Of a DNA stretch of 64,000 nt, positions 50,518 through 63,426 are shown piece after piece. Each line of letters starts with the position of its first letter. Positions within the stretch are counted from its first letter, which is position 1. Where the stretch lies: assembly GCA_017434855.1 (NCBI GenBank), contig JAFRUA010000002.1:1-64000 (forward strand), in the 5' to 3' direction. The stretch is from Clostridia bacterium. GTDB lineage: Bacteria > Bacillota > Clostridia > Oscillospirales > Acutalibacteraceae. Both the position numbers and the translations under genes were made by a program. Under the pieces are notes generated by a model. That model was not told the origin of the DNA, did no database searches, and was given only the letters and a program-made list of their open reading frames with translations.

Positions 50518-50701
50518 AATATCCTGCCGTGTGCGACAACCCAATGATTATAACCCAACACACTTTTTAAAGGAGAGCGTCTCGTGCAGCGGATTGCAGA
50601 CCTCCCGCTTTTGCGGACGAAGGGAGCGTGAACCTGCGCGGCAATTTCCACCCTGCTTGATGCAGGTTATACACGTTGGGCCGGCACGGCGGGATTTTTT
50701 T
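50518..50701 (+). ncRNA. ssrS: 6S RNA (RNA polymerase-binding regulator)
   Basis: A noncoding stretch of about 180 bases folds like 6S RNA. The closing stem TCCTGCCGTG (50522-50531) pairs fully with CACGGCGGGA (50685-50694) and is followed by seven T. An inner helix CCCAATG/CGTTGGG follows, then a large central bubble with the small 3'-side hairpin CCTGC-TTGAT-GCAGG (about 50652-50666). The apical stem is CGTGCAG/CTGCGCG with CTCCC/GGGAG above it. The central bubble mimics an open promoter and binds the housekeeping holoenzyme in known 6S RNAs. The call rests on structure and was not checked against a model. Confidence 0.8.
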
Positions 50702-50764
50702 ACAAATTATTCACATAAATTACCGCGCTTTGTTGGACATTTGTTGGACAGGCGACGCTATAAT
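50698..50764 (+). promoter_or_regulatory. Pho-box-like promoter module 1 (HAD phosphatase unit)
   Basis: TTTACA (50699-50704) and TTCACA (50710-50715) are 11 bp apart. TTTGTTGGACA then occurs twice in direct succession (50729-50739, 50740-50750). Eight bases later comes -10 TATAAT (50759-50764). No good -35 is present at 17 bp; the repeats take its place, as expected for an activator-dependent promoter. Module 2 at 53713-53779 has exactly the same spacing. Confidence 0.75.
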
Positions 50765-50798
50765 GGAAAAACAAAAAGCAAAAAGGAGCTGTCTCACA

Positions 50799-51881
50799 AT
50801 GAAAACCTACATCAAACGAACACTTGCCATTTTTCTTTGTCTGGCACTGATTCTGACCGTGCTTTGCCTTGTGGGCGGCGGACAAAAGAAGACGCAAGAC
50901 AAAGCGCTTTCACTGTGGACAGAAGGCGCAAAAGCAAAGGAAGCGCTGGTCGACTATGTTCAGACCGTCACGGATGCGGAAAGTGACGACTTTATTCCGG
51001 TGGAGGACCGCATCGCCGTGTTTGACCTGGACGGCACCCTGTTCTGTGAAACCGACCCGAACTATTTTGATTATACGCTTCTGGCGTATCGCGTGTTGGA
51101 AGACCCGGATTACAAAGACAAGGCGTCTGATTTTGAGCGCGAGGTTGCGAACAAAATCAAAGCGCAAAATGAAACCGGCGCAAAGTTTGACGGGCTGGCG
51201 GTCGACCACGGCAAAGCGGTGGCAAGCGCCTTCAAAGGCATGACGGTTGATGAATTCAACGCTTATATTCAGGAATTCAAAAAGCAGCCGATGCCAAGCT
51301 ATGACGGCATGACCCGCGGCGACGGCTGGTACCGCCCGATGCTGGAGGTTGTGGACTATCTGCAGGCAAACGACTTCACCGTCTATGTGGTCAGCGGCAC
51401 CGACCGCTTCATCGTGCGCGGTATCGTGGACAATTCTCCGCTGAACGTGCCCAACCGCCAGATCATCGGCTCTGACGAGACCGTGGTTGCCAGGAACCAG
51501 GGCGACGAAGACAGTCTGGATTTCACCTACAATAAAGATAATGAATACAACGATGACGATGCGATCGTTCTCGGCGGCGAATTCATCATCAAGAATCTGA
51601 AAATGAACAAGGTTGCCGTCATCACGCAGGAGATCGGCCGGAAGCCGGTGCTTTCCTTCGGCAACAGCTCGGGTGACAGCAGCATGGCGGAATATGTCAC
51701 ATCCGGCAACCCATACAAAAGCCTTGCGTTCATGCTTTGCTGCGACGACACCGCGCGTGAAAACGGCAAAGAAGAAACAGCGCAGAAGATGTATGATCTG
51801 TGTGAAGAATACGATTGGGTCCCCGTTTCCATGAAAAACGACTGGACGACCATCTATGGCGACGGCGTAACCAAAAAATAA
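50799..51881 (+). CDS. Exported or membrane-anchored HAD-family phosphatase
   Basis: 360 residues. A hydrophobic N-terminal segment (about 8-25) acts as signal or anchor. The HAD core has motif I FDLDGTLF (about 71-78, nucleophile and acid/base Asp), motif II VVSGTD (about 193-198), a Lys in the third position, and motif IV SFGNSSGDSSM (about 285-295). The layout with a helical cap (FNAYIQEF) resembles the phosphoserine-phosphatase-like/acid phosphatase branch. The ATG at 50799 follows AAAAGGAG by 10 bases. It sits under the Pho-box-like module 1, consistent with phosphate scavenging (inference). Confidence 0.87.
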   Translation: MKTYIKRTLAIFLCLALILTVLCLVGGGQKKTQDKALSLWTEGAKAKEALVDYVQTVTDAESDDFIPVEDRIAVFDLDGTLFCETDPNYFDYTLLAYRVLEDPDYKDKASDFEREVANKIKAQNETGAKFDGLAVDHGKAVASAFKGMTVDEFNAYIQEFKKQPMPSYDGMTRGDGWYRPMLEVVDYLQANDFTVYVVSGTDRFIVRGIVDNSPLNVPNRQIIGSDETVVARNQGDEDSLDFTYNKDNEYNDDDAIVLGGEFIIKNLKMNKVAVITQEIGRKPVLSFGNSSGDSSMAEYVTSGNPYKSLAFMLCCDDTARENGKEETAQKMYDLCEEYDWVPVSMKNDWTTIYGDGVTKK

Positions 51882-51905
51882 GCATCATTAATTGGAGGTC
51901 ACATC

Positions 51906-53657
51906 ATGAAAAAAACAACCAAGCGTACCTTCTCCATCCTGCTGTGCCTGCTGCTGGCGCTGTCTGTGTGCAGCGTCGCCGCATTCGCAGAGGGCGAAAC
52001 GACCAAAGAAGTCACTTACATCGACGCCAGCGGCACACCGCAGACCGTGGAAGCGACGGTGGCGGTGCCCGGCATCTACTATGGCGCATCGGTTGAAACG
52101 GGCTGGTATGTGATCGAAGGCACCTACAGCGGCGACGGACAACTGTTTTTTGAAGACACCGTCACCAATCTGATCCTTGCCGACAACGCCGACTGGACGA
52201 TCACAAATTCCGGCGAGATCAGCATTGGCAACGTCAACTCCGCCGGCACGCTGAACGTCTATGCGCAGGCAAACAACACGGGAGCGCTCCATCTCGCGGG
52301 CGGAATGATCTCCTATGGCGGCGCGATGCATATTTACGGCGGCAGCATCGTCTCTTCTTACAAGATTGGCGGTTCGCCGAGCAAGGGCGACCTCACGGCC
52401 GACAACTGTACACTGACCGGCAGCCTCTACGGAAAGGATATCACGCTGAGCAATTGCACCGTGACCGGCAACACTGGGAACTGCACCGGCGCATTCACGC
52501 TCGACGGCGGATCGTACACATCCGTTTGCGGAAGCTATGACGTGCCGGTGCGGGCAGCCAGCATCGTCATCACAAATGCCACAGTTGAAGGAAGCGGCGG
52601 CCAGTTTGGCCTGCACGCCACCGGCGGCAGCGTGACGATCCGCAACAGCACCGTGACCCTTTCAGCCAGCAACATGGCCATTTCCGGCAGCGGCGTCAGC
52701 ATCTCCGGCGGCAGCGTCACAGCGATCAGCACAGGCAACTTCGGCATCTACAGCTCCGGCGGTCCGATTGAGATCACCGGCGGAACCGTTACGGCCGAAG
52801 GCGGCGTTTTTGGGTTGTATTCCGGTCAGGGCGTTGCGCTCAACGGCGGTGTTGTGACTGCAGCCGGCAACGTCGCGGGCGTCAATCCGGGCGGCTCACT
52901 TACACTTGGCGCCGACACACCGAACAGCAGCTATACGCTCGGCAAAGTTTTATCCGGCGCGACGGTCACCGTGAAAGACGACCAGACCCTCACCGACGGT
53001 GAAAACGACTACACCGGCACGCTGACCTCCGAACAAGTCGCGGCACTGGCGGGCAAAACGCTGACCTGCAAGCACGCCTGGGCCTGGGTCGTTGACGACG
53101 AACCGACCTGCGGTGAAGCCGGAAAGCAGCACCAGATCTGCACCGTCTGCGGCACGACGCAGAACGAAGGCACCGTGATCGACCCGACGGGCGACCACGA
53201 TTATGCCGACGCCGAATGGACGTATTATAACGAGGAACAACATGTACGTTTTTGCACGGAGTGCGGCGCGCCGGAGTATGAAGGCCATCACGTCATCCTG
53301 AAAGGCACAGGCGACGCGACCTGCGGCGCCGAAGGCTTTACCGGCAGCGAATACTGCTCTGTCTGCGGCACACGCCTGTCTGAAGGCGAGATCATCCCGC
53401 CGACCGGCAACCACACCACGATCATCGTGAACGCGAAAGACGCCACCGCCACCGAGGACGGCTACACCGGCGACGAGGTCTGCACCGTCTGCGGCCAGAC
53501 GGTCAAAACCGGCGAAGTTATCCCCGCCACCGGCGCACCGGACGAACCGACCGAGGGCGCCTGCCCGCTTTGCGGCAAGACGCACAGTGCCAAATGGGTC
53601 CGTATCCTGCACTACATTTTCTATGTGATCCTCTGCGCGCTGAAGGTCATCAAATAA
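51906..53657 (+). CDS. Secreted beta-helix surface protein with repeated CxxCG modules
   Basis: 583 residues with a signal peptide (1-28). Residues about 60-330 are Gly/Ser/Thr/Val-rich with GGxV and SGGxVTA turns, typical of a right-handed parallel beta helix. From about 385 there are four CxxC-containing units (ICTVCGTT, FCTECGAP, YCSVCGTR, VCTVCGQT) separated by PTGDH-like linkers, ending with CPLCGKTH. The C-terminal 20 residues are hydrophobic/aromatic/basic (WVRILHYIFYVILCALKVIK) and could be a membrane tail. It starts 24 bases after the HAD gene behind GGAGG and probably shares its promoter. The ligand is unknown; beta helices often bind or cleave polysaccharides. Confidence 0.8.
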   Translation: MKKTTKRTFSILLCLLLALSVCSVAAFAEGETTKEVTYIDASGTPQTVEATVAVPGIYYGASVETGWYVIEGTYSGDGQLFFEDTVTNLILADNADWTITNSGEISIGNVNSAGTLNVYAQANNTGALHLAGGMISYGGAMHIYGGSIVSSYKIGGSPSKGDLTADNCTLTGSLYGKDITLSNCTVTGNTGNCTGAFTLDGGSYTSVCGSYDVPVRAASIVITNATVEGSGGQFGLHATGGSVTIRNSTVTLSASNMAISGSGVSISGGSVTAISTGNFGIYSSGGPIEITGGTVTAEGGVFGLYSGQGVALNGGVVTAAGNVAGVNPGGSLTLGADTPNSSYTLGKVLSGATVTVKDDQTLTDGENDYTGTLTSEQVAALAGKTLTCKHAWAWVVDDEPTCGEAGKQHQICTVCGTTQNEGTVIDPTGDHDYADAEWTYYNEEQHVRFCTECGAPEYEGHHVILKGTGDATCGAEGFTGSEYCSVCGTRLSEGEIIPPTGNHTTIIVNAKDATATEDGYTGDEVCTVCGQTVKTGEVIPATGAPDEPTEGACPLCGKTHSAKWVRILHYIFYVILCALKVIK

Positions 53658-53675
53658 CCCACCGACAATTTCAAC

Positions 53676-53716
53676 AAGGACGCCGGCTTTTGAGTCGACG
53701 TCCTTTTCCATTTTTT
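53676..53716 (+). terminator. Terminator of the HAD/surface protein unit
   Basis: Stem AAGGACG/CGTCCTT with a 16-base loop, followed by TTTCCATTTTTT. The T stretch runs directly into promoter module 2. Confidence 0.7.
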
Positions 53717-53779
53717 ACAGAATATTCACAGAATGGCGGCGATTTTGTTGGACATTTGTTGGACATTTAATGGTATAAT
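53713..53779 (+). promoter_or_regulatory. Pho-box-like promoter module 2 (mannosidase operon)
   Basis: TTTACA (53714-53719), TTCACA (53725-53730), TTTGTTGGACA twice (53744-53754, 53755-53765), then eight bases and -10 TATAAT (53774-53779). All distances equal those of module 1 at 50698-50764, while the bases between the boxes differ. Confidence 0.75.
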
Positions 53780-53808: not shown

Positions 53809-56800
53809 ATGTTTAATGAAAATCTCAACAACCGCATCTATGAAAAGCTGGATCACGCGCTTCACATCTATGAAAAGCTGATCTATCAGCCCGTTGGTGC
53901 GCTGCAGAACACCGAGGCACTGTTCACCGAAGAACATCTGCGCGCTGTGCCGGACAGCGGCTTTGCGCCCATCGCACCAGGCACCCCCTGGGGCGGCGAA
54001 TGGAACAACCTGTGGGTCCGCGGCGAATTCACCGTTCCGGCCGCGCTGGACGGAAAAACGCTGTTTGCCGTGTCTGACTGCGGCGGCTGCGAGCAGCTCT
54101 TCTTTTTGAACGGGGTCCCCAAGGGCATCTTCAACACCAAAAACGGCGACTTCATCGGCGGCCGCCACGCGGCGCAGTACATCGGCAAGGCCAAAGCCGG
54201 CGAAACGATCCGCCTGGCGTTTGAATGCTATGCCGGGCACTATGACCCCAACACCGACCCGTATGATTACTACTTTGAACCGGACCCGTCACAGACGTTC
54301 CGCCACACCTTTGACGGCGTGCAGATCTGCACCCGCAACGACGACGTGTTCACCCTGATTTTTGACGTGCGTGAGCTGCTGAATGCGGCGCGCCGCCTGC
54401 CCGAAAGCAACTATGCCTCCGCCCGCGCAAAAAAGGCCCTGCGGCAGATCAACGCCGTGCTGGTGCTGTATCCGAAGGACGCCGCGGACGAGGTTGTGAC
54501 AGACGGCGTGCGCAAGGCGCTGGCAATCTCGCGCCCGTTCTTTAACGGCGGCAACAGCCGCATCTTTGGCCGGGTGGGCATCCTTGGCCACAGTCACATG
54601 GACACGGCCTGGCTTTGGCCCGTGAGTGAAACGGTTCGCAAATGCGCGCGCACCTATGCCAACGCGCTGCACCTGATGGAGCAGTACCCGAGCTATAAAT
54701 TCATCCAGTCCTCCGCGCTGCACTGCGAGTGGATGAAGGAGGATTACCCGACGATCTTTGAAGAGATGAAGCGGCGCGTGGCAGAGGGCCGCTATGAGCC
54801 GAACGGCGGCGTTTATGTGGAATGCGACTGCAACATCACCTCCGGCGAGCTGATGGCGCGGCAGTTCCTCAAGGGCCAGCAGTTCACGCGTGAAAACTTC
54901 GGCTATACGGCCGACAGCTTCTGGCTGCCGGACACCTTCGGCTACAACGCCAACATCCCGCAGATCATGCGCAAAAGCGAAGTGAAATATTTTTACACGA
55001 CCAAGATCGGCTGGAACGAACTGAACCGGTTCCCGTTTGACAGCTTTGTGTGGCGCGGTCTGGACGGCAGCGAGGTCATCACCCATTTCAACCGTACCCA
55101 TTGCTGGCCGGACGTCAACGACTGCAGCGCCTGCGTGCGCGACCTGCAGCAAAAGGACACCACCGACCTGCGTCTTTTGGCCTATGGCTTTGGCGACGGC
55201 GGCGGCGGACCCACGCCCGGCATGATCGAAACGTCGCTGCGGTCCTCGAATATAGAGGGCATGCCGGAGGTCGTATCCATGACCATCAGCGATTTCGGCA
55301 AAGAGCTGGAGGCACAGAAGGATGATCTGCCGGTCTATGACGACGAGCTGTATCTGGAGCTGCACCGCGGCACCCTGACGCAGATGCACGACGTCAAGCG
55401 CATGAACCGCAAGGCGGAATACGCGCTGCGCGATATGGAATATTTCAATGTACTGAGCGGTCAAAAGCGCAACGAAAACAGCGACCGCTGGCTGAAAACA
55501 CTGCTCAAAAATCAGTTCCACGACATTCTGCCCGGCACCTGCATCCAGGCCGTCTATGACCTTTATCGCCCGGAGATGCGCGCGCTGCTGAAAGACTATA
55601 CCGACGCGGCGGCGCAGTACGCAGCGATGCTGACCGACGGCAGTGACCGCATCACGCTGTTCAACACCCTGTCGTTCCCGCGTGCCGACGCTGCCGTTCT
55701 GGACGTGAAGGGCTATGCAAAAGACCATCCCTCTCAGCGCTACGCCGACCTTCTGGGCAATGAAAAGCTGGCCGTCGGCGGCGTCAAGCTGCCCGGCTTC
55801 GGCACCGCGGTGCTGGACCTGACCGACACGCCGGTCGACGCCCCCTCCCCCTTCATCTATGACGGCGAAACGCTTGAAACGCCGTTTGCAACGCTTCGCT
55901 TTGACGAAGACGGCTACATCGCCTCCTTCATCGACAAGGCCACCGGTCGCGAGCTGCGAAAGAGCGGCGGCGCCCCGCTGGGCGTGCTGCTGTTTGGCGA
56001 AGACGTGCCCCTGGCCTGGGACAACTGGGACATCGAGCGTGACATCATCGAAAACCTGCAGCCCATCCACGGCTTCAGGGGCCGGACCGTTGTGACCGAC
56101 GGCGCGGTGGAGATCCGCCTGCGCAGCACATTTGAAATTGAAAACGGCACTGCGGTGACGCAGGACCTGGTCTGCTATGCCGATACGCCGCGCGTGGATT
56201 TCCATACCCTTGTGAACTGGAACAGTCCGCACCGTCTGCTGAAGGTCGGCTTTGACCTGGACATCGCGGCCTCGCGCGCCAGAAGCGAGATCCAGTTCGG
56301 CTCCATCGAACGGCCGACCACCGCCAACAACAGCCTGGAGCTGGCAAAGTTTGAGGTCTGCAACCGCAACTTCACCGACGTCAGCGAACCGCGGTTCGGC
56401 GCGGCAGTTCTGAACGACTGCAAATACGGCATCGCCGTGACGGACTGCAACCTGCGGCTGTCGCTGCACCGCGGCGGCACGCACCCGGACGGCACCGGCG
56501 ACAGGGGCCTGCATGAGATGACCTATGCCCTGCTGCCGCATGCCGGCGATTTCTGCGCCGAAACGGTGGTCCACCCGGCCTATATGCTCAACGTGCCGGT
56601 CGTCGCCGCCGGGGGCGCGGCGGATGCTGCACCGTTTTTGACAATCGACGCGCCAAACGTGATCGCCGAAGCGGTCAAGCCCGCAGAGGATGACAGCGGC
56701 GCCGTGGTGCTGCGCCTGTATGAGTGCGAAGGCAGCAAGACACAGACGACTGTGGCCCTGTCACTGCCGGTGAAGCAGGCGATCCTGACCAATTTGCTGG

Positions 56801-56892
56801 AGGATGCGCAGGCGGACCTGCCGCTGCAGAACGGCAAGCTGGCTTTGACGTTCAGCCCGTTTGAGGTCAAAACGATCAAGTTGATTTCCTGA
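53809..56892 (+). CDS. Alpha-mannosidase, glycoside hydrolase family 38
   Basis: 1027 residues without a signal peptide, so cytoplasmic. An N-terminal beta-rich domain (to about 250) precedes the GH38 catalytic barrel: zinc-binding GHSHMDTAWLWP (about 260-271), nucleophile Asp in WLPDTFGYNANIPQI (about 371-385), GDGGGGPT (about 465), and zinc His in FHDILPGT (about 568-575). Beta-sandwich C-terminal domains follow (about 620-1027). The family cleaves alpha-mannosides retaining configuration, with Zn or Co. GAAAGGAG precedes the ATG. It is the first gene of the operon under Pho-box-like module 2; the next gene starts 14 bases after its stop. Confidence 0.93.
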   Translation: MFNENLNNRIYEKLDHALHIYEKLIYQPVGALQNTEALFTEEHLRAVPDSGFAPIAPGTPWGGEWNNLWVRGEFTVPAALDGKTLFAVSDCGGCEQLFFLNGVPKGIFNTKNGDFIGGRHAAQYIGKAKAGETIRLAFECYAGHYDPNTDPYDYYFEPDPSQTFRHTFDGVQICTRNDDVFTLIFDVRELLNAARRLPESNYASARAKKALRQINAVLVLYPKDAADEVVTDGVRKALAISRPFFNGGNSRIFGRVGILGHSHMDTAWLWPVSETVRKCARTYANALHLMEQYPSYKFIQSSALHCEWMKEDYPTIFEEMKRRVAEGRYEPNGGVYVECDCNITSGELMARQFLKGQQFTRENFGYTADSFWLPDTFGYNANIPQIMRKSEVKYFYTTKIGWNELNRFPFDSFVWRGLDGSEVITHFNRTHCWPDVNDCSACVRDLQQKDTTDLRLLAYGFGDGGGGPTPGMIETSLRSSNIEGMPEVVSMTISDFGKELEAQKDDLPVYDDELYLELHRGTLTQMHDVKRMNRKAEYALRDMEYFNVLSGQKRNENSDRWLKTLLKNQFHDILPGTCIQAVYDLYRPEMRALLKDYTDAAAQYAAMLTDGSDRITLFNTLSFPRADAAVLDVKGYAKDHPSQRYADLLGNEKLAVGGVKLPGFGTAVLDLTDTPVDAPSPFIYDGETLETPFATLRFDEDGYIASFIDKATGRELRKSGGAPLGVLLFGEDVPLAWDNWDIERDIIENLQPIHGFRGRTVVTDGAVEIRLRSTFEIENGTAVTQDLVCYADTPRVDFHTLVNWNSPHRLLKVGFDLDIAASRARSEIQFGSIERPTTANNSLELAKFEVCNRNFTDVSEPRFGAAVLNDCKYGIAVTDCNLRLSLHRGGTHPDGTGDRGLHEMTYALLPHAGDFCAETVVHPAYMLNVPVVAAGGAADAAPFLTIDAPNVIAEAVKPAEDDSGAVVLRLYECEGSKTQTTVALSLPVKQAILTNLLEDAQADLPLQNGKLALTFSPFEVKTIKLIS

Positions 56893-56906
56893 AAGGGGTG
56901 CACGAT

Positions 56907-57689
56907 ATGAAAATCATGAGCTTTAACCTGCTTTGCGGCGGCAAAGGCGGCCGCGACTGGCCGGGGCGTGTGAATATGGTACTGGATACCATCCGCAGCG
57001 CCGACCCCGACACGCTGGGTGTGCAGGAGGCGCATTACGGCTGGATCAACGCGCTGTGCGCCGGTCTGCCCGGCTATGCCTATGTCGGCGTGGGGCGCGA
57101 CGACGGCAAAACCGAAGGCGAGTATTCCGCCGTATTTTATAAAAAAGACAAATACACGCTGCTGGATTCCGGCTCCTTCTGGCTGAGTGAAACGCCGGAC
57201 GTCCCCGGCGTCAAGGGCTGGGACGCCGCCTGTGTGCGGATCTGCTCTTATGCCAAGCTGCAGGAAAAGGACACCGGCAGGCAGTTTGTGCATTTCAACA
57301 CCCATTTGGACCACAGAGGACAGATCGCCATGCAAAAGGGCGCCGAGCTGGTCGCGAAAAAAGCGGCCGAGATCTGCCCGGACCTGCCCGCGTTTTTCAC
57401 CGGCGACTTCAACGTGCCGCCGGAATCCGCCCCCTATCGCGCAGTGATCGACGGCGGCTTTCGGGACGCGAGGCTGGCCGCGCCCGTCAGCGACGACAGC
57501 GTGACTTTCCACTGTGAAGTCTATGTCACGAAAAAGTTTTATGAACCCCCGGTCATCATTGATTATTGCTTTGTCAAAGGCGACGTCGCCGTTCGCAGCT
57601 ATCGCGTGCTGCAAAACGTCTATCCCGGCGATCTGTATCCGTCCGATCATTTTCCCGTTCTGGTCGAGGTCGATCTTCCGTCTGCGTAA
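56907..57689 (+). CDS. Endonuclease/exonuclease/phosphatase (EEP) family hydrolase
   Basis: 260 residues, no signal peptide. Motifs of the DNase I-like fold: MSFNLLCGG (Asn), VQEAHYGW (metal-binding Glu), FNTHLDH, FFTGDFNVPP (Asp/Asn), IIDYCFVK and PSDHFPVLVEV (Asp-His). The cytoplasmic location and glycosidase neighbours suggest a phosphodiester or sugar-phosphate substrate and not DNA, but this is inference. The ATG at 56907 follows GAAAGGGGTG; a GTG at 56898 lies inside that site. Confidence 0.87.
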   Translation: MKIMSFNLLCGGKGGRDWPGRVNMVLDTIRSADPDTLGVQEAHYGWINALCAGLPGYAYVGVGRDDGKTEGEYSAVFYKKDKYTLLDSGSFWLSETPDVPGVKGWDAACVRICSYAKLQEKDTGRQFVHFNTHLDHRGQIAMQKGAELVAKKAAEICPDLPAFFTGDFNVPPESAPYRAVIDGGFRDARLAAPVSDDSVTFHCEVYVTKKFYEPPVIIDYCFVKGDVAVRSYRVLQNVYPGDLYPSDHFPVLVEVDLPSA

Positions 57690-57719: not shown

Positions 57720-59792
57720 ATGGACCTGACAGCAGCACGCCGCACAGCGCGGCAACTGGTTTCTCAAATGACGGCAGAAGAAAAAATGTCACAGCTTCTG
57801 TATGAATCCCCCGCCATCGAGCGGCTGGGCATCCATGAATACAACTGGTGGAACGAGGCGTGCCACGGCGTTGCACGCGCGGGCGTTGCCACCGTGTTTC
57901 CGCAGTCCATCGGCATGGCGGCCAGCTTTGACCCGCCGCTGGTGCACAAGGTCGCCGCGGCGATTGCCGAAGAGGGACGCGCAAAGTACAACAAAAGCGT
58001 GGCGCACGGCGACCGCGGCATCTATAAGGGCCTGACCTTTTGGGCGCCGAACATCAATATCTTTCGCGACCCGCGCTGGGGCCGCGGGCAGGAAACCTGC
58101 GGCGAGGACCCGTTCCTGACGTCCGCAATCGCCCGGGCATACATCGCCGGATTGCAGGGGGACGGTGACTTTTTCAAGGCTGCCGCCTGTGCCAAACACT
58201 TTGCGGCGCACTCCGGGCCGGAGCGCAAGCGCCACGGCTTTGACGCCGTTGTTTCACCGAAGGACCTGCACGAAACCTATCTGCCCGCATTCCAAAAAGC
58301 GGTGGAAAGCGGCGTGGCGGGCATCATGGGCGCTTATAACCGCACCAACGGCGCGCCCTGCTGCGCCAGCCCGGCACTGATGGACATTCTGCGCCGGCAA
58401 TGGGGCTTTTCGGGGTACTTTGTTTCGGACTGCGGGGCGATCGCCGATATCTTTGAAGGGCACCACAGCGCCGCGTCGCTGACCGAGGCCGCCGCCATGG
58501 CGCTGAAGGCCGGGTGCGAGCTCAACTGCGGCGGCGCTTATGAAGCGCTGACCGACGCCTATGAGGCGGACCTGATCACCGACGAAGAGATCACGGCCGC
58601 CGCCGAGCGCCTGTTCACCATCCGCGCAAAGCTGGGCGAGTTTGAACCGCAGCGACCCTTTGCCGACATTCCGTATGCGGCGGTGTGCTGCAGGGAACAC
58701 AAGGCGCTGAGCCTGCGCGCAGCCGAAGAAACGCTGGTCCTTCTGGAAAACAAAAACAACTTTTTGCCCCTTGACGCAAAGTGCGCGCAAACCATCGCCG
58801 TGGTCGGCCCGACCGCAATGAACATCTGGTCGCTGGAGGGCAACTACAACGGCCACGCCGACGAATACATCACCGTGGCAGACGGCGTCCGGCGCGTGTT
58901 TTCCAATGCGCGGGTCACTGTGGCGGACGGCGCGCAGATCTGCGACGGGCTGACATCCCGCTGGGACGGGTTTGACGCGCTGAGCAGCGAAGGCGCGGCC
59001 GCCGCCGAAGACGCGGACGTCACGATCCTGTGCCTGGGCCTTGACCGCACCGTTGAGGGCGAAGAACTTGGCTTTGACAATGATTTCACCGAAGGCGGCG
59101 ACCGCAGAACCATGCGGCTGCCCAAATGCCAGCAAGAACTGGCCGAGCGGGTGTGCGACGTGTGCGACAACGTGATCGTTGCGGTGCTGTGCGGCTCCTG
59201 CGTCGACCTGGGCGACCGGGTCCGCAGCCATGCCAAAGCTGTGCTGCACGCCTGGTACCCCGGCGCTTTGGGCGGGCTGGCCGTTGCAAATGTTTTGGCC
59301 GGCGTCACGGCGCCCAGCGGCAAGCTGCCCATCACGTTTTACCGCGACGACGACCCGCTGCCCGCCATGGAAAACTATGACATGACCGGCCGGACCTATC
59401 GTTTTATGACGAGCGAACCGCTGTACCCCTTCGGTTTTGGCCTGAGCTATACCACGTTTGCCTTTGCCGACGCAGCGATCACCGAACAGACCAAAGACAC
59501 GCTGACTTGCGAAGTCGGCGTGACCAACACCGGCAGCCGCGCCGGGCGCGCGGTGGTGCAGTGCTATGCAAAATTCACCGACAGCCGCACCGTGACGCCG
59601 AACTGCCAGTTGTGTGCCATCGCATCGGTGGATCTGCAGCCGGGCGAGCACAAGCCGGTTCGCCTGACTGTGGACCGGTTCTGGCTGAAGGCGGTGCTGC
59701 CAGACGGCACGCGCACCGACCCGGACGGCGGCGTGACGCTGTTCTTCGGCGACGGTCAACCGGGCAAAGATTCCGCCCGCATTTCATTGTAA
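57720..59792 (+). CDS. Glycoside hydrolase family 3 enzyme (beta-xylosidase/glucosidase type)
   Basis: 690 residues, cytoplasmic. The N-terminal barrel has NWWNEACHGVARAG, FWAPNINIFRDPRWGRGQET, CAKHFAAHSG and the nucleophile Asp in GYFVSDCGAI (about 237). The second alpha/beta domain has AEETLVLLENKNNFLPL and CLGLDRTVEGE, and an FN3-like C-terminal domain (about 585-690) has PFGFGLSYTTF. The NxW/ACHG start resembles clostridial beta-xylosidases more than beta-hexosaminidases. AGGAGG precedes the ATG. It is 30 bases from its neighbours on both sides, within the mannosidase operon. Confidence 0.93.
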   Translation: MDLTAARRTARQLVSQMTAEEKMSQLLYESPAIERLGIHEYNWWNEACHGVARAGVATVFPQSIGMAASFDPPLVHKVAAAIAEEGRAKYNKSVAHGDRGIYKGLTFWAPNINIFRDPRWGRGQETCGEDPFLTSAIARAYIAGLQGDGDFFKAAACAKHFAAHSGPERKRHGFDAVVSPKDLHETYLPAFQKAVESGVAGIMGAYNRTNGAPCCASPALMDILRRQWGFSGYFVSDCGAIADIFEGHHSAASLTEAAAMALKAGCELNCGGAYEALTDAYEADLITDEEITAAAERLFTIRAKLGEFEPQRPFADIPYAAVCCREHKALSLRAAEETLVLLENKNNFLPLDAKCAQTIAVVGPTAMNIWSLEGNYNGHADEYITVADGVRRVFSNARVTVADGAQICDGLTSRWDGFDALSSEGAAAAEDADVTILCLGLDRTVEGEELGFDNDFTEGGDRRTMRLPKCQQELAERVCDVCDNVIVAVLCGSCVDLGDRVRSHAKAVLHAWYPGALGGLAVANVLAGVTAPSGKLPITFYRDDDPLPAMENYDMTGRTYRFMTSEPLYPFGFGLSYTTFAFADAAITEQTKDTLTCEVGVTNTGSRAGRAVVQCYAKFTDSRTVTPNCQLCAIASVDLQPGEHKPVRLTVDRFWLKAVLPDGTRTDPDGGVTLFFGDGQPGKDSARISL

Positions 59793-59822: not shown

Positions 59823-61223
59823 ATGTTGAAATCGAAACGTAAACCCCTCGCCTTGCTGCTGGCGCTGCTGCTTTGCTGCACATCGCTGTTCATTGTGCCG
59901 GCCACTGCGGTCGCCGCAGACGATGCGGACTTTGTGCCGGTGCTGCGGTTTATCGCGTCCAGCGACACGCATGTGACCGGCGCGGGCGACGTCAAAACGC
60001 AGCGGATTGACAGCATGCTCGGCATGGCCTATGACCTTGCGGCAAGCGATGCAAACTATCAATCGCTTGACGCGGTGCTGGTGGTTGGCGACCTGACGGA
60101 CGACGGCACTCCGGAACAGTTTGACGCCTTTGACAGTACCATGAAAAACGACCTGCGGGACGGCACAAAGCTGCTTGCCGTGGTAGCCAAAAACCACGAC
60201 GGCTACAATCAAAGCCGCGCCGACATTCGCGCAACCTGCGAAGCCATGACCGGGAACGGCGCCGATTTTCATGTGGTGCTGAACGGCTACCATTTCATCG
60301 GGCTTTCCGCGTCAAAAGACAGGCTACAGCACTATGACCTCGGCCAGCTGCGCTGGCTGAAGCAGCAGCTGGACGCCGCAGTCAAAGACGACCCGAACAA
60401 GCCGGTCTTTGTGATGCACCACGAGCCGACGGTGGAAACCGTCTACGGCAGCTCGGTCTATGACGGCTGGGGCGTGCCCTATTTCGGCGCGATTCTGCGG
60501 CAGTACCCGCAGGCGGTGGAAATTGCCGGGCACTCCCATTACCCGGTCAACGACCCGCGCTCGGTCTGGCAGGGTGCCTACACCGCCGTCAACACCGGTG
60601 CGATCGCCTATGCAGAATTCACCGTAGACGCCACCCGCACCTATCACCCTGCGGATTCCAGGGACGTGGCAAACTGCTGGATCGTTGAGGCCAACGCCGC
60701 GGGTGACCTGCGTTTGCGCGGCATCGACGTCAACGCGCAAAGCGTTCTGTGCGATTTTGTGATGAAAAACCCGGCCGACAAAGCCAACCGCGATTTCACG
60801 CCGGCCAAACGCAAGGCGGCGTCCAAAGCGCCCGCATTCGCCGACGGCACGGCAATGACGGTGACGCCGACCGAAAACGGCTGCAAGGTCACGGTACCCG
60901 CAGCGCAGTCCACAGACGGGATGCCTGTAATATTGTATCGCATCAGCGCAAAGAGCGCGCTCGGCATCCCCGTCGCAAAGAGCTGGACGCTGGCGCAGTA
61001 CTATCGATCGGACGGCGCCGATGAGATCGAACTGGAGCTGCAGGGCCTTATCCCGGGCAGTTACACGGTCAGCGTCACCGCGGAAAATGCCTATGGCAAG
61101 CAGTCGCAGCCCCTGCAGACCACCGTGACCGCCACAGGAAAACAGGGCTTTGGCTATCTGGGCGTCCTGATAAATCTGTTCTTTGGCAGGATCAAAGATT
61201 TTTTCGTGCATCTGTTCTGGTAA
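59823..61223 (+). CDS. Secreted metallophosphoesterase with C-terminal beta domain and tail
   Basis: 466 residues with a signal peptide (about 1-33). Phosphoesterase motifs are SSDTH (about 47-51), VVGDLTD (about 88-94), KNHD (the usual GNHD is AKNHD, about 128-131), VMHHEP (about 198-203) and AGHSHYPVNDPRS (about 239-251). A beta-rich domain follows (about 335-440), then a hydrophobic/aromatic tail (YLGVLINLFFGRIKDFFVHL). The Gly-to-Lys change beside Asn-His is unusual. AAAGGAG precedes the ATG. It is paralogous to the next gene. Confidence 0.88.
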   Translation: MLKSKRKPLALLLALLLCCTSLFIVPATAVAADDADFVPVLRFIASSDTHVTGAGDVKTQRIDSMLGMAYDLAASDANYQSLDAVLVVGDLTDDGTPEQFDAFDSTMKNDLRDGTKLLAVVAKNHDGYNQSRADIRATCEAMTGNGADFHVVLNGYHFIGLSASKDRLQHYDLGQLRWLKQQLDAAVKDDPNKPVFVMHHEPTVETVYGSSVYDGWGVPYFGAILRQYPQAVEIAGHSHYPVNDPRSVWQGAYTAVNTGAIAYAEFTVDATRTYHPADSRDVANCWIVEANAAGDLRLRGIDVNAQSVLCDFVMKNPADKANRDFTPAKRKAASKAPAFADGTAMTVTPTENGCKVTVPAAQSTDGMPVILYRISAKSALGIPVAKSWTLAQYYRSDGADEIELELQGLIPGSYTVSVTAENAYGKQSQPLQTTVTATGKQGFGYLGVLINLFFGRIKDFFVHLFW

Positions 61224-61267: not shown

Positions 61268-62596
61268 ATGAGCTTTTCTGAAATCAAGCAATGGATCATC
61301 GGCATCATTTTCGGCGTGTTTTCCGTGTTGCTGGTCGTGCTGCCCGGCCAGAGCGTGCAGCATCTGTTCGGCGCGGTCAGCAAAGATTTGCCGGAAACGC
61401 CCGACACGTTTGTGCCCACCGTCCGCCTGGTCATTTTTACCGACACCCACAACCACAACGACCGCGTGGCGGACGCCATCGACACGGCCTATGCCCTGTT
61501 TGACGACGCCGACGTCTATGCCGGCGTGGACGGCTTTTTCTGCCTGGGCGATTTTTCCAGCATCGGCGAAGAGGGCGCGTATCCCAACTTTGTGAACACG
61601 CTGAAGGAGCATGTGCGGCCCGAAACGCCCGTCGTGACCATCCACGGCAACCATGAATTCAAGAACGACAACTACCGCGAATATTTCATCAAGTATTTCG
61701 GCTATGACCCGGACACCGTGACCGAGATCAACGGCTTTTCCTGCATCGCCTTTTCCGGCGAGCGCAGCGCCACGGAATGGACCTTCACGGCCAAAAGTCT
61801 GAAGTGGCTGTCGGATTCCATTGCTGACGCGGAAAAGAGCCGCACCGACAACCGGGCAATCTTTGTCTTTCAGCACCCGCACCCGTGGGGCACGGTCTAT
61901 GGCAGCTCGGTCTGGGGCGACCCGCAGCTCAACCCCGTGCTCACCGGCCACCCGGCCGTTGTGGACTTTTCCGGCCACTCGCATTTCCCGATGAACGACC
62001 CGCGCAGCATCAACCAAACGACCTATACGGCAGTGGGCTGCGGCGCGATGGAATACTTTGAACTGGACAACAACTGCATCCCCGGCCAGCACCCGGACGG
62101 CTATGACCCCGCCGACCAGATGACGATTGTGGAAGCGGACAACGACGGCAGCGTGCGCATCCGCGGCTATGACCTGCTGTCACGCACCTATTTCTGCGAG
62201 TATTACATCGACGACGTCAACAACACGCGCGATTATAAATACACTTATAACAACATGCGCCTGCACGACGCAGCGCCCGTCTTTCCGGACGGCGCCACGG
62301 CGACCGCGTATCAAAACGAGGGCGGCGAATGGGTCCTGTCGTTTGACGAGGCCACGGCGGCTCCCGGCTATATCGTACATGATTATCTGGTCACGATCAC
62401 AGATGAAAAGGGCAAGATCGTCCTGCTCAAAAACTTCATCGACGACTATTATGTGATCGACGACGACAGCACGGCGGACTTCCGCATCGGCGCCGACACA
62501 CTGGAAAGCGGCAAGACGTATAATCTGATCGTGGTTGCCGAAAGCGCCTATAACAAATACTCCAGGCCGCTGCGGCTGCAATTCACGGCGCAGTGA
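61268..62596 (+). CDS. Membrane-anchored metallophosphoesterase
   Basis: 442 residues. A single uncleaved-looking N-terminal membrane segment (about 9-28) precedes the phosphoesterase core: FTDTHNH (about 57-63), LGDFSSI (about 96-102), HGNHEF (about 126-131), FQHPHPWG (about 201-208) and SGHSHFPMNDPRS (about 236-248). The last motif is shared almost exactly with the preceding gene (GHSHYPVNDPRS), and both have YGSSV, so they arose by tandem duplication and then diverged. A C-terminal beta domain follows without the amphipathic tail. GAAAGGAAGG precedes the ATG. Confidence 0.88.
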   Translation: MSFSEIKQWIIGIIFGVFSVLLVVLPGQSVQHLFGAVSKDLPETPDTFVPTVRLVIFTDTHNHNDRVADAIDTAYALFDDADVYAGVDGFFCLGDFSSIGEEGAYPNFVNTLKEHVRPETPVVTIHGNHEFKNDNYREYFIKYFGYDPDTVTEINGFSCIAFSGERSATEWTFTAKSLKWLSDSIADAEKSRTDNRAIFVFQHPHPWGTVYGSSVWGDPQLNPVLTGHPAVVDFSGHSHFPMNDPRSINQTTYTAVGCGAMEYFELDNNCIPGQHPDGYDPADQMTIVEADNDGSVRIRGYDLLSRTYFCEYYIDDVNNTRDYKYTYNNMRLHDAAPVFPDGATATAYQNEGGEWVLSFDEATAAPGYIVHDYLVTITDEKGKIVLLKNFIDDYYVIDDDSTADFRIGADTLESGKTYNLIVVAESAYNKYSRPLRLQFTAQ

Positions 62597-62628
62597 CCCC
62601 GGCCTTGAACGAAAGGAGCGTTTGCCCT

Positions 62629-63426
62629 ATGAAACGTCTTTGGAAGCCCTTGCTTTCCGGCATGACGGCGCTGGCCGTTTTGATGGCCGCGCTGTGCATG
62701 AACGGCTGCAAAAAGTCTGACAGCACAGACACCGCGCACGCAGACTCTGCCCAGCCGGAACCGACGACAGAAATCGCCGAGGACGGCATTGTGCTGTCCA
62801 ATGATGCGTCAGACTTTGTGCTTTTGACCGACGCCGTGCCGGACGCGATTCTGGAGATCCGGTACTTCTCCACCTATAACTTTGTGGGGGACCGCATCGA
62901 CGGCTATGAGGAACCGGTCGCGCTGCTGACCAAAGAGGCGGCCGCCGCACTGAAAGACGCCAGCGACGCGTTCCTTTCCATGGGCTATCGGCTGAAAATC
63001 TATGACGCCTATCGTCCGCAGATGGCCGTCAGCCACTTTGTACGCTGGGCCGCGGACACGGGCGACGTCCGCATGAAGGAATACTTCTATCCCGATCTGG
63101 AAAAGGACGTCCTGTTCCCGCAGGGCTATATTGCCGAGCACTCCGGCCACAGCCGCGGCAGCACGGTGGACCTGACGCTGTTTGACATGGCGGCGGAAAA
63201 AGAGCTGGACATGGGCGGCACCTTTGACTTCTTCGGCGAAATCAGCCACCCGGATTATAAAGACATCACCGACGAGCAATATGCCAACCGCATGCTGCTG
63301 CGCGAGGTCATGCTCAAGCACGGCTTCAAACCGCTGGCCGAGGAGTGGTGGCATTTCACACTGGCAGACGAGCCGTATCCCGACACTTATTTCACGTTCC
63401 CCGTGAACAGTGATTCCATACGCTAA
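62629..63426 (+). CDS. VanX-like D-Ala-D-Ala dipeptidase, lipoprotein
   Basis: 265 residues. A signal sequence with Cys in MNGCKK (about residue 26) suggests lipid anchoring. The M15D peptidase domain has DAVPDAILEIRYFSTYNF (in part), YDAYRPQMAVSHFVRWA (in part), zinc-binding EHSGHSRGSTVDLTL (His and Asp) and EEWWHF (catalytic Glu and zinc His). Exported enzymes of this type hydrolyse D-Ala-D-Ala or peptidoglycan dipeptides; as no van genes are near, a nutritional or wall-recycling role is likelier than vancomycin resistance. The ATG at 62629 follows GAAAGGAG by 10 bases. Confidence 0.9.
   Translation: MKRLWKPLLSGMTALAVLMAALCMNGCKKSDSTDTAHADSAQPEPTTEIAEDGIVLSNDASDFVLLTDAVPDAILEIRYFSTYNFVGDRIDGYEEPVALLTKEAAAALKDASDAFLSMGYRLKIYDAYRPQMAVSHFVRWAADTGDVRMKEYFYPDLEKDVLFPQGYIAEHSGHSRGSTVDLTLFDMAAEKELDMGGTFDFFGEISHPDYKDITDEQYANRMLLREVMLKHGFKPLAEEWWHFTLADEPYPDTYFTFPVNSDSIR

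Follow-up and report, generated by a model that had tools for sequence, protein, structure and literature searches.

Two promoters in the stretch analysed here, the first 64,000 nucleotides of contig JAFRUA010000002.1 of a Clostridia bacterium (hereafter the window), carry the same boxes at the same distances, and the question is which protein recognises them and which signal it serves. We consider it likely that a two-component system with a response regulator of the SARP kind uses the shared module as its operator. An earlier interpretation of the same DNA, the sequence-only reading, had compared it with a Pho box.

The modules lie at 50699-50764 and 53714-53779, both on the forward strand, where the sequence-only reading had placed them, and the offsets of the boxes are the same in both: TTTACA at 0, TTCACA at +11, TTGGACA at +34 and +45 and TATAAT at +60. 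The bases of the boxes are identical at 32 of 32 positions and those between the boxes at 15 of 34. Eight of these 15 belong to the TTTG that precedes each heptamer, which gives a conserved core of 22 bp, the operator TTTGTTGGACATTTGTTGGACA, consisting of two TTTGTTGGACA units. A scan for promoters of the TTGACA type found none at either module; the repeats take the place of the -35 element.

The genome is 2.74 Mb long and 97.9% complete, and the window forms part of its contig C18. The genome scan suggested in the earlier reading yielded further copies of TTGGACA-N4-TTGGACA, five exact ones in all, with 0.012 expected over 2.74 Mb from the base composition of the window, which supports the view that the boxes are selected. 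The spacer is TTTG in all five, i.e., each copy is TTTGTTGGACATTTGTTGGACA, and a -10-like hexamer stands 8 bp downstream of every one; the backward control gave none. When two mismatches were allowed, 12 matches were obtained in the whole genome, seven of them with two mismatches, and 18 in the backward control. As the two-mismatch matches are rarer than those of the control, the operator family is sharply bounded and only the exact family stands out. Within the window, a heptamer pair with two mismatches was expected 0.44 times and seen twice, a number matched by 5 of 100 shuffles; the case for the operator rests on its exact recurrence throughout the genome, not on counts in the window.

Exact pairs are present in seven of the 34 genomes of the genus, with three to five per genome. 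A scan of public genomes with an exact 21-mer, in which the spacer was fixed as TTTG and the -10 element was not part of the pattern, retrieved at least 117 stretches, by record title mostly from gut or rumen Clostridia; exceptions among the listed matches include Absicoccus, Solobacterium, Bacillus and Parcubacteria. All counts of sites, first genes and regulators given below for the gathered loci hold among the matches listed. The loci contain 156 unique sites, 149 with the spacer TTTG. The alignment used 149 of the 156 sites, leaving out short flanks and the inner registers of tandem arrays, and 138 after redundancy removal. The pattern TAnnnT occurs exactly at +8 in 122 of the 137 nonredundant sites, whereas no other offset between 0 and 39 has it in more than 22. 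In the pooled sites the extended -10 positions show T at 0.67 and G at 0.63, no -35 element is visible, and upstream A/T tracts recur about 11 bp apart, a phasing that would fit contacts of the polymerase alpha domain.

Some loci carry three or four tandem 11-bp units (L107:6968-7007, L063:5027-5055 and L116:5054-5093); in the last of these arrays, from Absicoccus, the -10 is absent at +8. The off-clade matches in Parcubacteria (L070) and Bacillus (L086), which have no -10 at +8 either, probably arose by chance. Divergent operator pairs 48-350 bp apart were observed at L058, L071, L084, L096, L100, L135, L161 and L242, and one site of the L071 pair precedes a regulator gene.

A response regulator that co-occurs with the operator

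The candidate regulator, P0001, consists of a receiver domain and a winged helix and is encoded at C3:20569-21375, 11 kb from one of the operators, as the sole close copy in the genome. Based on the best E-value per genome, available for all 34 genus genomes, its orthologs (E ≤ 1e-99, 58-100% identity) occur in exactly the seven genomes that bear the operator and in none of the 27 others (Fisher 1.9e-7). Among these 27, three have relatives of 37-41% identity and 24 only weaker response-regulator matches, at 1e-14 or worse. The analysis of 300 genomes of the family, from 135 genera, showed the heptamer pair, with any spacer, in 9 of 11 genomes with a close regulator (E ≤ 1e-49) versus 5 of 289 without one (Fisher 2.2e-12); at E ≤ 1e-20 the counts were 9 of 43 and 5 of 257. 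Four of the five pair-bearing genomes without the regulator have unusual spacers, and these pairs look like chance because their spacers are unlike the rest and the backward control matched eight genomes. Likewise, 34 of the 117 loci retrieved by operator DNA alone carry a close regulator (at least 150 bits). A downstream open reading frame was found for 149 of the 156 sites, and 103 nonredundant ones were kept (at least 80 amino acids, within 200 bp) and cut at 620 amino acids; 11 of these 103 first genes encode a receiver domain (Response_reg) and eight a winged helix (Trans_reg_C).

A kinase gene lies directly upstream of P0001 and overlaps its gene. Its product matches PF06580 (9.8e-19) and HATPase_c and has six hydrophobic segments in the N-terminal half. 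Among the regulators of the retrieved loci, a kinase-like gene is directly upstream in 21 of the 31 with enough upstream DNA, and all of 35 sequences compared share D53, T81 and K101 in the receiver. The arrangement is thus that of a two-component system, with a kinase gene beside a receiver regulator whose phospho-acceptor site is conserved. P0001 is also adjoined by a gene resembling those of sugar-phosphate transporters (PgtP model, 100 bits with a cut-off of 408). At L213:9446 and L214:2835, a paralogous kinase-regulator pair, its regulator 50-51% identical, is divergent to a site with the spacer TCCT; the L213 site sits before an apiosidase-like gene. The same winged-helix effector was observed at the C-terminus of long PAS-domain proteins in L232 and L234, the former also containing GGDEF.

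The gene of the MocA-type oxidoreductase behind the third genome copy is found in this genome and seven others of the genus, with 86-91% identity, and the operator precedes it in the six of these eight genomes that have the regulator. In G028 and G017 no regulator was found, nor any TTGGACA within the retrieved MocA flanks; G028 retains one degenerate heptamer and the -10, and G017 neither. In a ninth genome, G022, whose MocA gene is 63% identical, neither regulator nor heptamer was found. The sequence-only reading had named loss of the boxes beside a kept gene as evidence against its interpretation. Such loss is seen in these three genomes, but the regulator was found in none of them either, which is consistent with the link between the two.

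Several observations weigh against this association. In G068 the regulator search found none, although five heptamer pairs of the usual kinds are present, while G215 and G123 carry close regulators without an exact pair. The Fisher values treat related genomes as more independent than they are, and the line at E ≤ 1e-49 was set after inspection of the list. Many genomes are incomplete, and the operator occurs in only two of the 15 genus genomes that are at least 90% complete; G017 (74%) and G028 (85%) are themselves incomplete, so the absence of the regulator there is not proven. Moreover, many of the 117 loci come from a few genomes that are each represented repeatedly, and the kinase gene is not adjacent in 10 of the 31 regulators.

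The class of the regulator and the proposed mechanism

P0001 has an OmpR-type winged helix (Trans_reg_C, 4.4e-6; 27.1 bits with a cut-off of 26.2). The structure model of its 136-amino-acid effector domain shows a compact winged helix with three further helices behind it (predicted local distance difference test, pLDDT, 95.2; predicted template modelling score, pTM, 0.90); the full-length model gave a pLDDT of 90.7 and a pTM of 0.57, which makes the placement of the domains uncertain. A tblastn search on plasmids returned 10 records, led by a Butyrivibrio response regulator (59%, 2e-49). The other matches were weak and comprised Deinococcus proteins named as GAF or BTAD proteins, a BTAD protein of Streptomyces, two plain response regulators and two further records. 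The hhalign probabilities of the effector were 95.1 with the Deinococcus and 76.8 with the Streptomyces BTAD protein versus 19.0 and 14.2 with two OmpR-type regulators of this genome, all with single-sequence templates; the two comparators were drawn from the six Trans_reg_C proteins that the genome has besides P0001 (seven in all). The Deinococcus alignment extends to residue 479, within the BTAD of that protein (436-547), and the Streptomyces alignment stops 10 residues into the BTAD. The BTA of AfsR consists of seven helices, the first three of which lie packed against the winged helix (PMC10936776). The three-helix tail of P0001 may be a remnant of BTAD reduced to the packing part.

The assignment to the SARP kind also meets contrary evidence. 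Pfam BTAD (PF03704) was not found in the regulator up to E=1, and it was found in 0 of 34 genus genomes, so it fails as a marker of the regulator. When the effector profile was compared with the PDB, the matches were OmpR-type regulators (best 4.6e-4; ArlR 4.9e-4; PhoB 0.17), and SARPs were absent up to E=1. By tblastn the two BTAD proteins were matched weakly (E 0.2 and 0.8) and the two plain response regulators equally so, and the likeness to BTAD comes from these matches and the four hhalign comparisons. For P0001, no NCBIfam family over cut-off was obtained among the best 25 of 98 matches, the PhoB model reaching 43 bits with a cut-off of 296. P0001 would therefore be a SARP-type variant that works like a SARP and not a standard SARP, since BTAD, one defining feature, fails.

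In the proposed mechanism, the membrane histidine kinase would phosphorylate the receiver domain, which is fused to the OmpR-type winged helix with its short BTAD-like tail. Two regulator molecules would then occupy the two TTTGTTGGACA units next to each other, with one molecule per helical turn, where a -35 element would otherwise stand, and would hold the housekeeping sigma factor and the polymerase on the -10, 8 bp downstream. Binding, phosphorylation by this kinase, activation and not repression, and the contact with sigma are what we infer for this system. The predicted regulon comprises at least five promoters here, with phosphoesterases, glycosidases and the MocA-type oxidoreductase operon, and in relatives it would often take in the regulator gene itself.

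The spacer may be read by a particular residue of the regulator. At residue 148, which immediately precedes helix 1 in the model, close regulators from loci with TTTG operators have Arg, and those from TTTA, ATTA or TCCT loci have Leu, Met, Ile or Ala; the exceptions are L078 (Met, TTTG) and, in L207, a distant paralog with Tyr (TTTG). The pattern involves few changes on the tree, and most loci were selected by TTTG. In AfsR, the start of the corresponding helix contacts the DNA backbone (PMC10936776), and by analogy this helix start would match the position of residue 148. We regard the link between residue and spacer as a lead and not as proof. More tentatively, and with rather more doubt than confidence, it could be supposed that a SARP-type two-component class, made up of receiver-controlled, BTAD-truncated, sigma-adapting activators, is widespread in gut and rumen Clostridia, with one near-invariant 22-bp operator whose 4-base spacer insulates paralogs. 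A kinase-controlled SARP form with a strict, searchable operator would, if true, provide predicted regulons for many uncultured gut bacteria; it would also assign a DNA site to a class of response regulators that has seldom been studied, and the role of BTAD could be examined in a minimal case.

Associated genes and other explanations

The features of both promoters and the remaining genome copies are presented in Table 1. The genes that the sequence-only reading had placed behind the promoters (HAD, GH38, EEP and two phosphoesterases) were matched by Pfam, and the same-strand gene run after copy 2 extends beyond the end of the window. Terminator-like stems are present at 50674-50691 and 53684-53697; with six stems in the region versus 5.2 in shuffles, the evidence that the first TTTACA overlaps the T tract of a preceding terminator is weak.

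Table 1. Positions of the promoter elements, the genes that follow them and the other exact operator copies in the genome.
Feature	Position	Strand	Evidence or remark
Upstream direct repeat TTTACA-N5-TTCACA, copy 1	50699..50715	+	second element, enriched in genus
Operator copy 1, two 11-bp units TTTGTTGGACA	50729..50750 (heptamers 50733-50739, 50744-50750)	+	sequence, genome scan, site alignment
-10 element TATAAT, copy 1	50759..50764	+	8 bp past operator
HAD-family hydrolase, first gene of copy 1	50799..51881	+	Pfam HAD 4.4e-7; N-terminal hydrophobic segment (by eye)
583-amino-acid protein, second gene after copy 1	51906..53657	+	signal-peptide-like start (by eye); zinc-ribbon match sub-threshold; probably on one transcript with the HAD gene
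Upstream direct repeat TTTACA-N5-TTCACA, copy 2	53714..53730	+	second element, enriched in genus
Operator copy 2, two 11-bp units TTTGTTGGACA	53744..53765 (heptamers 53748-53754, 53759-53765)	+	sequence, genome scan, site alignment
-10 element TATAAT, copy 2	53774..53779	+	8 bp past operator
GH38 alpha-mannosidase, first gene of copy 2	53809..56892	+	Pfam 9.1e-78
EEP (Exo_endo_phos) hydrolase	56898..57689	+	Pfam
GH3 glycosidase	57720..59792	+	Pfam
Metallophosphoesterase	59823..61223	+	Pfam; looks exported (by eye)
Metallophosphoesterase	61268..62596	+	Pfam; looks exported (by eye)
M15 D-Ala-D-Ala dipeptidase family protein, VanX-like	62593..63426	+	in GH38 gene run; 208 bits, below VanX cut-off of 320
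Third genome copy	C18:74704	-	before MocA-type oxidoreductase
Fourth genome copy	C3:9585	-	before metallophosphoesterase
Fifth genome copy	C49:5674	+	before metallophosphoesterase, then alpha-galactosidase

The first genes of the five operators encode a HAD hydrolase, GH38, the MocA-type protein and two metallophosphoesterases, none of them a phosphate transport gene. Among the 103 first genes, the families counted, as raw numbers without a background rate, were Metallophos (9), HAD (4), GH38 (4), apiosidase-like (4), Phosphodiest (3), STAS (2) and SpoIIE (2). Operators precede STAS-domain proteins at L091:3882-4178 and L135:2013-2309. The first genes of L061, L087, L115 and L172 resemble anti-sigma ATPases by eye; a Pfam scan of L115, the sole one scanned, found nothing. 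In a sixth promoter of this genome (G000:C49:3561-3601, L022), only one TTGGACA precedes TATAAT, at 8 bp; TTTACA and TTCATA keep their usual distance from this heptamer, and a VanY-family carboxypeptidase gene lies downstream.

The upstream pair behaves differently from the heptamers. TTTACA-N5-TTCACA with at most one mismatch occurs twice in the window, where 0.16 are expected and 0 of 100 shuffles reach two; TTTACANNNWWTTHACA is present at three places in the genome, two of them in the window and the third before a small unassigned open reading frame, and once in the backward control. The TTHACA element recurs on different promoters in this genome. Counted over 155 of the 156 sites, with the genus separated by hand from locus names so that "outside" may include congeners, TTHACA stands exactly at -34 in 13 of the 29 sites from the genus, which include orthologous promoters, and in none of the other 126, two of which have it at -33. 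At -23, TTHACA is found in 8 and TTHAYA in 13 of the 29. Judged from these sites, the TTHACA and TTGGACA pairs are separate elements, the former enriched in the genus.

The sequence-only reading likened the module to a Pho box; on this view a PhoB/PhoP regulator would bind all four boxes and activate the genes when phosphate is scarce. The consensus TT(A/T/C)ACA given there is matched by the upstream pair, and phosphoesterases are frequent among the targets. The PHO-box layout described in the excerpt of PMC4415409 also comprises two 11-nt direct repeats with seven conserved bases each, which explains how the idea arose. However, the operator tracks another regulator, and sites from outside the genus have the TTGGACA pair but no TTHACA at -34. 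No PstB over cut-off was found in this 97.9% complete genome (13 of 14 control genomes pass), the other phosphate genes and PhoP not being searched for, and the two best matches of that search score higher to amino-acid transport ATPases. The three occurrences of TTTACANNNWWTTHACA in the genome, the third before a small unassigned open reading frame, also count against a Pho box. We consider that explanation very unlikely, and the phosphate-starvation signal finds no support; the response regulator with an OmpR-type winged helix is retained from it, its identity with PhoP is not. The signal may still be a phospho-compound, and a phosphorylated-glycan signal would be a guess. A possibility to be taken seriously, if somewhat short of an even chance, is that within the genus two regulators act jointly, the SARP-type one on the TTGGACA pair and a second one of the OmpR/PhoB family, possibly PhoP-like, on TTHACA, which would extend the SARP-type reading. 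The frequencies at -34 and -23 in the genus favour it, and the conserved C argues against a pure A/T contact by the polymerase, but 16 of the 29 sites from the genus have no TTHACA at -34, near misses are scattered elsewhere, and with the A/T phasing of about 11 bp alpha-domain contacts may be part of the explanation.

Two further explanations dispense with a dedicated tandem operator. MerR-type promoters have a -35 element with a long spacer of 19-20 bp, and the first heptamer resembles TTGACA at 19-20 bp from the -10; the 11-bp duplication, the three or four tandem units in some loci and the absence of an inverted repeat by eye make a TTGGACA variant of this kind very unlikely. Near-identical 22-mers at many loci could also point to a dispersed repeat or mobile element, an origin that we find barely credible, as the flanks are unlike, the -10 distance is fixed, the downstream genes are varied and no conserved ends were seen in the aligned sites. 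A SARP-type response regulator on the 22-bp operator is the explanation that we prefer.

Comparison with known systems

Most of what is known about SARPs concerns activators of antibiotic clusters in actinobacteria. Like the Streptomyces SARPs (AfsR and the small SARPs), the system described here has 11-bp direct repeats, a 3' repeat 8 bp from the -10, a poor -35 and a winged helix followed by BTAD-like helices. Unlike them, it has a receiver domain in front, does not match Pfam BTAD and has three tail helices instead of the seven of the AfsR BTA; its host belongs to the Clostridia, and its targets are hydrolase and signalling genes and not antibiotic clusters. According to PMC10936776, the direct repeats of SARP promoters are spaced by 11 or 22 bp and the 3' repeat is 8 bp away from the -10, and in the SARP complex sigma region 4 sits atop two SARP protomers and not in the -35 groove (PMC10936776).

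Among the matches listed, neither this operator nor any operator or regulon of the class is described in the open-access literature on SAPR, COG3947, BTAD and SARP in Clostridia. The papers listed for TTGGACA, TTGTTGGACA or two longer strings include none on this topic, and none of those listed holds the longer strings. The response-regulator family SAPR (COG3947), with the architecture receiver plus SARP, may be comparable to P0001. According to the excerpt of PMC7046781, SAPR is the least conserved of the response-regulator families compared there, present in 8.4% of 628 species. Receiver-BTAD proteins are also known from biosynthetic clusters, where, in the excerpt of PMC10663231, BTAD occurs in 0.6% of the response regulators; that excerpt gives no operator, and the gene neighbourhoods here consist of hydrolases and surface proteins. 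PhoB/PhoP with the PHO box, as excerpted in PMC4415409, shares the two 11-nt direct repeats with seven conserved bases each and would share tandem binding by an OmpR-type effector, whereas here the heptamer differs, no PstB over cut-off was found in the genome and the effector appears, by hhalign, nearer to the two BTAD proteins tested.

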